Below, one piece after another: positions 1-1,466 of a DNA stretch of 19,796 nucleotides. Numbering within the stretch: position 1 is the first letter of the stretch; the number at the start of each line of letters is the position of its first letter. Under the pieces are notes generated by a model, which saw only the letters and a list, made by a program, of their open reading frames with translations, was not told where the DNA came from and did not search any database. The position numbers and the translations under genes were made by a program. The DNA is from Flavobacteriaceae bacterium. Lineage in GTDB: Bacteria; Bacteroidota; Bacteroidia; Flavobacteriales; Flavobacteriaceae. Location: contig JAQWYU010000060.1 of the NCBI GenBank assembly GCA_029253805.1, forward strand, positions 1 through 19,796, written 5' to 3'.

Positions 1-397
1 TAATATTGTTGTTTTCTAAAAAAGCACTGACTGTATTGGGGTAGGAAGTTGCAATTTGTCTTCCATTTAAATCTTCAAGAGAGTTGTATTCCATGTTTTT
101 TGGAACTGCAATTGAAACCCTACACTTTGAAAACCCAAGTTTCGAAATATATTCTATGGAATTTCCTTTTTCAACCAGCACATTTTTTCCAATTATAGCG
201 GCATCTACTACCCCATCTTTTAAGTATTGAGTAATGTCTCCATTTCGAAGATAAAACACTTCGATAGGAAAATTAGTAGCTGTTGCTTTGAGTTGGTCTT
301 TGCCATTATCAATAGAAATCCCAATAGCTTTCAGTAGTTTCATGGAATCGTCTTTTAGACGTCCTGATTTTTGTACTGCAATTTTTAAAGTATTCAT
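1..397 (-). CDS. hisG: ATP phosphoribosyltransferase HisG, N-terminal part (runs off window)
   Basis: First enzyme of histidine biosynthesis: joins ATP and PRPP to give phosphoribosyl-ATP in the cytoplasm. The minus-strand frame is open from ATG at 397 to the window edge, giving about 132 residues. It begins MNTLKIAVQKSGRLKDDS and continues with DGVVDAAIIGKNVLVEKG and EDLNGRQIATSYPNT, which match the catalytic periplasmic-binding-like domain of HisG. The C-terminal part lies outside the window, so I cannot tell from sequence whether the long-form regulatory domain is present; the family in this phylum is usually about 285 residues. The gene follows a His-rich leader peptide and an intrinsic terminator (413-446), so transcription is very probably controlled by attenuation according to charged tRNA-His supply. 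It is presumably the first gene of a his operon that continues beyond position 1. Confidence 0.93.
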   Translation of the reverse strand, partial: MNTLKIAVQKSGRLKDDSMKLLKAIGISIDNGKDQLKATATNFPIEVFYLRNGDITQYLKDGVVDAAIIGKNVLVEKGNSIEYISKLGFSKCRVSIAVPKNMEYNSLEDLNGRQIATSYPNTVSAFLENNNI

Positions 398-412
398 TGT
401 TCGTTATTTAGT

Positions 413-446
413 AAAAAAAAGACCCGCTTGATTTCTCAAACGGGTC
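413..446 (-). terminator. his attenuator: intrinsic terminator before hisG
   Basis: On the minus strand an 11-bp stem (arms 436-446 and 421-431, one G-U pair) closes a GAAA tetraloop (432-435) and is followed by eight U residues (413-420). It ends 16 bases before the hisG start, between the leader peptide and the gene it would silence, so it is an attenuator and not an end-of-operon terminator. Confidence 0.9.
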
Positions 447-492
447 CGTATATAGTTCATAATAGTATCCTACACATCTTTACCTCGCTTGA
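436..492 (-). promoter_or_regulatory. his antiterminator pairing (alternative hairpin)
   Basis: The end of the leader frame (482-492, read UCAAGCGAGGU in RNA) can pair with the terminator 5' arm (436-445, ACCCGUUUGA) through ten base pairs with one bulged A and one G-U. The same leader segment is nearly a copy of the terminator 3' arm (421-431), as expected of competing partners. A ribosome stalled at the His codons would leave 482-492 free, so the antiterminator forms. One reaching the stop codon would cover it, so the terminator forms. Pairing was worked out by eye; no folding energies were computed. Confidence 0.7.
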
Positions 493-539
493 AAGCCAGT
501 TAAAATATGATGACTATGGATTACTAAAAATAGATTCAT
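480..539 (-). CDS. hisL: his operon leader peptide
   Basis: A 19-codon frame from ATG at 539 to TAA at 480-482 encodes MNLFLVIHSHHILTGFQAR. Three of four consecutive residues (8-11, H-S-H-H) are histidine, the hallmark of a leader peptide whose translation senses charged tRNA-His. It lies about 80 bases upstream of hisG, on the same strand, and directly before a strong intrinsic terminator. Its last codons (bases 482-492) can pair with the 5' arm of that terminator, so the position of the ribosome on this frame decides which hairpin forms. It is too short for normal gene calling. The gene name is by analogy with enterobacterial hisL; I see no sequence similarity beyond the His run. Confidence 0.85.
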   Translation of the reverse strand: MNLFLVIHSHHILTGFQAR

Positions 540-556
540 TGTTATAATTATTGATA

Positions 557-564
557 CAAATATT
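557..564 (-). promoter_or_regulatory. possible -7 box for his leader transcript
   Basis: AATATTTG on the minus strand, one mismatch from the Bacteroidota -7 consensus TAnnTTTG, lies 17 bases before the leader ATG. I see no clear TTG at the -33 position, so this is tentative. Confidence 0.25.
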
Positions 565-653: not shown

Positions 654-1466
654 TTATTGATTCCCTAAAATAATTGGCAAACCATTTTTCCCAGAACCAA
701 TTACAATCACTTTACTATTTGAAGATTCAGAAAGTTTTACAGTTGCTTCAATACCTTTATCTTGCAAAATACGATCGTTGAGGGATGCGCTTAATATTCG
801 GTTGGCATCAGCTTTACCTTGTGCTTCAATACGCACCTTTTGAGCTTCTTTATCAGCTGTTACTAACCTAAACTCATACTCTAAGGACTCTTGTTCTTGT
901 TTTAATTTACTTTCAATAGCATTCTTGATTGTATTAGGTAATTTGACGTCTTCAACTAATACACGTTTTACATTTAAAAATTGTCCATCTAATAGATTAA
1001 CTACTTCATCAAGAATTTCTTGTTCAATTACATCTCGTTTGCTGGAGTAAAGCTGTTCTGGAGTATAACGACCAACTACACTACGTGCAGCGGCATTAAC
1101 CGCAGGGTTAAGTAGTTCTGTGACATAGTCCTCCCCTTTCGTTTTTATTAAACTACCAAGATTTTCAAATTCTGGCTCATACCATATAGTTCCATTTACT
1201 TTTACTTCTAATCCATTCACTGAAAGAACGTTCATCTCATCCGAAATAGATTGCTGTCTTACTTTGTGTATGAGCATACTGTTCCATGGGGCTACAATTT
1301 GAAAACCTTCACCATAGGTTTTTTCTGTTACAATTCCGTCTCCAAATCTTTCAAACAAGACACCACCTTCACCAGGTCCAATTGTAACTGCTGATTTAGA
1401 AATTAATATAAAAAACACTCCGATTATTACTATAATGGGAAGTCCGATTTTGGGTAAATTTTGCAT
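654..1466 (-). CDS. Prohibitin / SPFH-domain membrane protein
   Basis: A 270-residue protein of the prohibitin (SPFH/Band 7) family. One N-terminal membrane segment (about residues 8-27, rich in I, V and F) is followed by the Band 7 domain (about 28-190, including GPGEGGVLFERFGDGIV and the AARSVVGRYTPEQLYSSKRD segment) and a charged, probably coiled-coil region (about 185-235, EQESLEYEFRLVTADKEAQ). The family forms large ring assemblies at membranes and, in other bacteria, accompanies membrane proteases such as FtsH; no protease gene is adjacent here, so a partner is unknown. It ends a three-gene run with fabG and a VWA-domain membrane protein, 14 bases after the latter. The start ATG at 1466 is supported by the membrane segment that follows directly. 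The family is certain; the exact role is not. Confidence 0.9.
   Translation of the reverse strand: MQNLPKIGLPIIVIIGVFFILISKSAVTIGPGEGGVLFERFGDGIVTEKTYGEGFQIVAPWNSMLIHKVRQQSISDEMNVLSVNGLEVKVNGTIWYEPEFENLGSLIKTKGEDYVTELLNPAVNAAARSVVGRYTPEQLYSSKRDVIEQEILDEVVNLLDGQFLNVKRVLVEDVKLPNTIKNAIESKLKQEQESLEYEFRLVTADKEAQKVRIEAQGKADANRILSASLNDRILQDKGIEATVKLSESSNSKVIVIGSGKNGLPIILGNQ

Follow-up and report, generated by a model that had tools for sequence, protein, structure and literature searches.

A predicted ribosome-mediated his attenuator before hisG in Flavobacteriaceae and its spread over Bacteroidota

The his attenuator of Escherichia coli carries seven His codons and six pairing segments, and the enterobacterial trp and his attenuators have a segment-1 protector hairpin. 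The locus described here, found in a genome of the family Flavobacteriaceae, resembles the his attenuator of E. coli and Salmonella (Rfam RF00514) in its short leader with clustered His codons, its terminator before hisG, and its alternative antiterminator. In contrast, the flavobacterial switch has fewer His codons and three pairing segments, its antiterminator arm lies at the end of the leader frame, it shows no evident protector hairpin, and it gives no match to RF00514 at the cut-off.

His attenuators are described in general terms in the accessible text of PMC9413887 and PMC8305728; in that of the latter, which deals with his genes in the Bacteroidota superphylum, the word leader is absent from the main text. 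According to the accessible part of PMC9413887, his attenuators with three to five His codons occur in Firmicutes (Bacillus cereus group, Peptostreptococcaceae, and Erysipelotrichales), sharing with our locus a leader peptide, a terminator, and an antiterminator before his operons, although they belong to another phylum and are likened here by their description. In bacilli, hisS/hisZ paralogues are preceded by a leader peptide containing a run of His codons and by a premature terminator, a case that concerns other genes and another phylum than the flavobacterial hisG switch; the same paper, from 2010, notes in its accessible part that previously no such systems were known outside Proteobacteria and Actinobacteria (PMC2965389). 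Within the family itself, a 2021 study of Flavobacterium psychrophilum (PMC9723704) reports, in the part available, a structured 5' element before hisG that also occurs in further genera of the Flavobacteriaceae and matches no Rfam family, as well as strong indications that amino-acid operons are preceded by leader-peptide attenuators. This element precedes the same gene in the same family as our switch, but the available text neither states that it is of the leader-peptide type nor gives its sequence; the two are probably identical, a match made by place and family and not by sequence. The earlier note on this DNA, which called translation-coupled attenuation best known from Proteobacteria, was right about the attenuator, but the case is less novel than supposed there, both the hisG 5' element and leader-peptide attenuation of amino-acid operons having been reported for F. 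psychrophilum in PMC9723704. Ours is a his attenuator of a long-known kind, little described in this group.

The window, as we call the whole stretch of DNA analysed, comprises 19,796 nt and is an entire contig of a 1.65 Mb genome (310 contigs, 77% complete). The locus lies on its minus strand, in the order stop of an SPFH-like gene at 654, promoter-like box, leader ORF, spacer, terminator, and hisG start at 397. The 5' part of hisG (2..397, minus strand; NCBIfam TIGR00070, E 6.7e-33) is truncated at the window end, which is the contig end, whereas the SPFH-like gene upstream of the leader (654-1466, minus strand) gave a weak NCBIfam match to HflK. The gene under control of the predicted switch would be hisG; in the close relative L103, it is followed by an ORF taken as hisD by eye alone.

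A promoter -7-like box, AATATTTG, was found at 557..564 (minus strand), with 7 of 8 positions matching the Bacteroidota -7 consensus TAnnTTTG as quoted in the available part of PMC9723704; being one base off, it is an inexact match. The sequence GAATATTTG is retained in the nine nearest named relatives (L102-L110), and 51 of 114 sequences, compared with 10% of the shuffles, had an exact TAnnTTTG in the 110 nt ahead of the leader. The transcript would start near 552. Regarding translation, a Shine-Dalgarno-like 4-mer in the 20 nt that precede the leader start was present in 3 of the 114 sequences (2.6%) and in 3.8% of the shuffles, that is, with no excess, which for this leader bears out the weak Shine-Dalgarno use mentioned in the earlier note. 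Both counts cover 114 of the 115 possible sequences, one being too short upstream, and mononucleotide shuffles.

The leader ORF of 19 codons, MNLFLVIHSHHILTGFQAR, occupies 480..539 on the minus strand, with its ATG at 539 and its TAA at 482-480, and its stop lies 82 nt from hisG. The H-S-H-H motif could be read directly, with the three His codons at 518-516, 512-510, and 509-507. A Ser codon (515-513) splits them, and the nine nearest named relatives show an unbroken run of three or four His; the interrupted run of the window may be a weaker sensor or an assembly oddity.

Downstream of the leader, folding and covariation placed the terminator 5' arm at 436..447 and its 3' arm (segment 4) at 420..431, followed by a U run at 413..419 read from the sequence, all on the minus strand. 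Including its outer G-U pair, the stem has 12 bp (447-436 with 431-420); without this pair, it has the 11 bp that had been claimed, together with the GAAA loop (435-432) and the U run. The fold of 412-447 reached -19.4 kcal/mol (z -6.93), and none of 200 shuffles was equally stable. The end of the leader at 482-492, TCAAGCGAGGT, is almost identical to the terminator 3' arm at 421-431, TCAAGCGGGTC, a near-copy that had been noticed before and that the sequence confirms. When 434-500 was folded with the 3' arm omitted, 494-482 paired with 445-434 in 9 bp, a bulged A (485), and 3 bp (-17.9, z -2.89; 1 of 200 shuffles equally stable), and thus the antiterminator proposed between 482-492 and 436-445 does fold, with a slightly longer extent. 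Its 5' arm (segment 2, 482..494, minus strand) is made of the last leader codons and the first base of the stop, and its 3' arm (segment 3, 434..445, minus strand), located by folding, overlaps the terminator 5' arm and loop; since both structures use the same bases, they are mutually exclusive. As a duplex, the antiterminator of the window scored -14.8 against a shuffled mean of -6.9, a strength that none of 100 shuffles reached. Base 494 follows the end of the last His codon (509-507) at a distance of 12 nt, and base 492 at 14 nt, in line with the spacing of about 14 bases given earlier. The window fold also contains a spacer hairpin between leader and terminator, whose columns do not align across relatives. 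The equilibrium fold of the whole leader region favours the terminator, so that antitermination would depend on the order of folding.

The computation thus showed the ORF, the terminator, the antiterminator, their spacing, and, as described below, their conservation. Cognate codons are clustered in a short ORF, an intrinsic terminator separates the leader from hisG, and the predicted antiterminator, mutually exclusive with the terminator, shares its 5' arm. A ribosome with its A site on the last His codon would reach to about 496, and with this footprint a ribosome at the His codons would free the antiterminator arm and one at the stop would mask it. On these grounds, the locus very probably controls the his operon by ribosome-mediated transcription attenuation. 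RNA polymerase would start near 552 and a ribosome would begin the leader at 539. With scarce charged histidyl-tRNA, the ribosome would stall at the His codons (518-507) and leave 494-482 free to pair with 445-434 as the latter emerges, so that no terminator would form and transcription would proceed into hisG. With plentiful histidyl-tRNA, the ribosome would arrive at the stop (482-480) and cover 494-482, the terminator (447-420) would form, and transcription would end near 413-419. The response to histidine and the ribosome footprints in this scheme are inferred.

The same leader could in principle act on the translation of hisG, by stalling or reinitiation, and not on termination, and leader genes near structural genes may indeed aid reinitiation (PMC4833913, available part). 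Nevertheless, the 82 nt between leader stop and hisG contrast with the peak at 11-14 bp given for Bacteroidetes in that part of the paper, and a strong conserved intrinsic terminator stands between the two, so we regard translational control as very unlikely.

A His T-box or other riboswitch was considered as well, as T-boxes precede his genes in Firmicutes (PMC9413887, available part). However, the search of the window against Rfam (release 15) returned no family reaching its cut-off, and no T-box was among the nine weak matches found in 300-700 at E values up to 10; the switch is almost certainly not of this kind. These nine sub-cut-off matches (PyrR, the trpB motif, Trp_leader, and others) were rejected as resemblances in form. 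Two of them, at 410-511, were the trpB motif RF04312 (29.2 bits, cut-off 59) and the PyrR site RF00515 (30.9 bits, cut-off 54), whose likeness probably comes from the shared terminator-antiterminator form. Regarding RF00514 (His_leader, cut-off 49 bits), no match was found in the window, and the best ones in the genome, of 17.2 and then 14.5 bits, were on other contigs; such weak matches are meaningless, because at a lax E-value this model matches 13 of 14 control genomes, exceeding the cut-off in only one. As Rfam release 15 holds no model that finds the switch in the window, annotation pipelines relying on it would miss it.

The conservation of the leader was analysed on 120 genomes drawn from the Flavobacteriaceae, of which 99 had hisG, including that of the window; in G048, the contig ends 118 nt upstream of hisG, leaving 98 testable genomes. 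Leaders were picked by His clustering: in the 99 family genomes as the ORF with the densest His clustering (one His being enough), and as ORFs with at least three His in five codons in the other 77, which came from wider draws; the shuffle controls used the same His criterion. A His-containing short ORF was picked upstream of hisG in 98 of 98 testable family genomes. Under the strict criterion (ORF of 8-45 codons, within 260 nt of hisG, with at least three His in five codons), 95 of the 98 retained it, compared with 1.1% of dinucleotide shuffles and none of the 98 reverse strands, and therefore the leader is not a chance ORF and the His codons are conserved in related genomes, as had been claimed. 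In the wider draws, the corresponding figures were 62 of 77 genomes, 1.4% of shuffles, and 2 of 77 reverse strands. When the amino acids were compared (ATG starts, 175 genomes), only His was far above shuffles (0.84 vs 0.002). A leader with several His was also present in 79 of the 80 named records with the closest HisG, the remaining one (L123) ending at the contig end; these records are not independent of the family draw, because some contigs are shared. Most of the 80 are titled Flavobacteriaceae or its genera, with a few titled otherwise (e.g., Chlorobiota, Rhodobacteraceae), and of the named relatives sharing 89-94% identity in HisG, the majority bear titles of Flavobacteriaceae MAGs.

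A terminator, taken as the most stable hairpin ahead of a T-rich stretch, was found by script after the leader stop in 96 of the 98 family genomes, and the remaining two (G104 and G075) have a hairpin by eye. In total, the picking yielded a His-containing leader with a terminator behind it in 150 of 176 genomes. This figure bears on the possibility that the hairpin is the terminator of the SPFH-like gene, or an ordinary spacer terminator, preceded by a chance ORF. The SPFH-like gene does share the strand, with its end at 654, but the terminator is about 200 nt beyond it, directly before hisG, and 1.1-1.4% of shuffles passed the strict His criterion alone; we consider this explanation extremely unlikely.

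Both stems were then compared across 83 of 104 eligible family sequences, the columns of the other 21 being unalignable because their leader stop is displaced or their terminator atypical. In the terminator, 98.1% of the cells were paired and 6 of 12 pairs had changed on both sides; on each of five measures, all 500 shuffles scored lower. In the antiterminator, 89.9% of the cells were paired, compared with 88.8% in shuffles; 4 of 11 pairs had changed on both sides (3 of 500 shuffles as high), and the further pair types were unremarkable, 51 of 500 shuffles reaching as many. The two outer pairs, after the bulge, failed in 21 and 42 of the 83 sequences, so that conservation is confined to the 8-pair core. 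RNAalifold on the alignment returned the terminator only, the antiterminator being counted with a structure named by the analyst. The compensatory changes that had been expected in relatives are thus clear in the terminator and weaker in the antiterminator, whose covariation is modest.

A further line of evidence came from the duplex formed by each genome's own sequences, sought in the region that begins at the last clustered His codon and stops just short of the terminator. The own duplex averaged -13.2 (shuffled, -6.8) in 96 family genomes and -13.6 (shuffled, -8.2) in 54 wider-draw genomes, the latter comprising also 8 Flavobacteriaceae and several others whose terminators resemble those of the family. 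In 82 of 96 family and 39 of 54 wider-draw genomes (121 of 150 in all), no more than 5 of 100 shuffles matched the strength of the own duplex. The own pairing beat at least 95% of foreign terminator arms in 92 of 150 genomes, including 32 of 54 in the wider draws, and it failed to beat 90% of them in 17 of those 54. Mean antiterminator and terminator energies were about equal, with -17.2 vs -16.7 in the family and -16.4 vs -16.8 in the others. The median distance from the last clustered His codon to the antiterminator arm is 9 nt. In 146 of 150 genomes the arm starts before the leader stop is complete, and in 150 of 150 it reaches no more than 12 nt past this stop. In 121 of the 150, the arm is wholly inside the leader frame plus stop, so the embedding of the antiterminator in the reading frame, pointed out in the earlier note, extends well beyond the window.

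In L007 and L008 (G014 and G013), the leader stop lies 9 nt further upstream, as a TAA in place of the relatives' Gln codon, and the antiterminator arm is retained, offering a natural test of the required position of the stopped ribosome.

The sequence of the leader end also bears on whether the peptide is a functional micropeptide, with the RNA pairing secondary. Within the Flavobacteriaceae, its C-terminus is well conserved, commonly QAR, QAS, QAN, or QAK, as a functional peptide would have it. Against this, the C-terminus changes together with the terminator, to SPGKPR (G210), PPGK (G179), and PKG (G218) alongside terminators of the GGCTTACC..GGTAAGCC type. In these genomes and in G215, G254, and G280, the leader end or its surroundings matches the own terminator, which is unlike that of the family. 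Such a match of the pairing bases to the own terminator points to selection at the RNA level, and a functional micropeptide is accordingly a very improbable alternative to the attenuator.

Beyond the family, hisG was found in 35 of 59 genomes drawn from the order, 38 of 80 from the class, and 51 of 61 from the phylum, each count including the genome of the window. The 77 best-match genomes of these wider draws were examined, leaving out 33 weaker ones (5, 7, and 21), mostly with distant HisG from the phylum draw. With a 420-nt region and at least three His in five codons (62 of 77 in total), a leader was picked in 8 of 8 genomes of the same family, 15 of 21 of other families of the order (7 of 8 families), 28 of 30 of other orders of the class (20 of 22 families), and 11 of 18 of other classes of the phylum (3 of 9 families). 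It was followed by a terminator in 8, 15, 25, and 6 genomes, respectively. This distribution would fit a regulator that was retained across great distances, or regained, while the terminator sequence was replaced. A partial literature search found no published account of how his attenuators are distributed over Bacteroidota; a wide attenuation survey, Lopatovskaya et al. 2010, may already list cases from this phylum.

Two groups of genomes deserve separate mention. The six leaderless genomes of the order belong to one family of 0.6-Mb genomes (L203-L205 and L207-L209; G170, G175, G144, G152, G165, and G159), which retains hisG and has no His leader. A GCTTAC..GTAAGC hairpin followed by a T-rich stretch still precedes hisG there and may be what is left of the switch once regulation had been lost. 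In addition, one family of another class (L249-L253; G274, G297, G285, G291, and G288) has a His-rich ORF started by GTG or TTG before hisG, and no intrinsic terminator was found before hisG in these five. In L249, the His codons are inside a 9-bp hairpin (129-nt fold, z -4.3), and the upstream region in this family looks like a different mechanism.

Finally, we searched the leaders for a protector hairpin. No stable fold was found in the leader of the window (z 0.18), and leader folds were no better than shuffles on average, with a mean z of -0.28 in 104 family genomes and -0.15 in 46 others; z was below -2 in 5 and 3 of them, respectively. From this lack of an evident protector hairpin, we infer that an untranslated leader should leave the operon on, as segments 2 and 3 would pair before segment 4 is made. 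The operon would then be off only if a ribosome completes the leader close behind RNA polymerase. Counting against such a default-on layout, as does the equilibrium fold in favour of the terminator, segment 2 of the isolated leader is not particularly accessible, its mean pairing probability being 0.53 against 0.40 leader-wide in the family and 0.62 against 0.42 in the others, and the window has a small hairpin inside this segment. We give even chances to the broader proposal that a three-segment, default-on his attenuator, without protector hairpin, with an in-frame antiterminator arm and a start lacking a Shine-Dalgarno sequence, is ancestral to much of Bacteroidota; tight transcription-translation coupling would then operate throughout a phylum whose translation initiation is non-canonical. 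The predicted switch, if it works in this way, implies that the loss of leader translation would turn the operon on and not off, in contrast to the enterobacterial attenuators.

In conclusion, the interest of this switch lies in its spread over Bacteroidota, its three-segment layout, and the transcription-translation coupling that it implies. If the attenuator operates as proposed, ribosome and RNA polymerase would be coupled closely enough for attenuation in Bacteroidota, even without a Shine-Dalgarno sequence for the leader, and the predicted switch would be a natural reporter for this coupling in the phylum.
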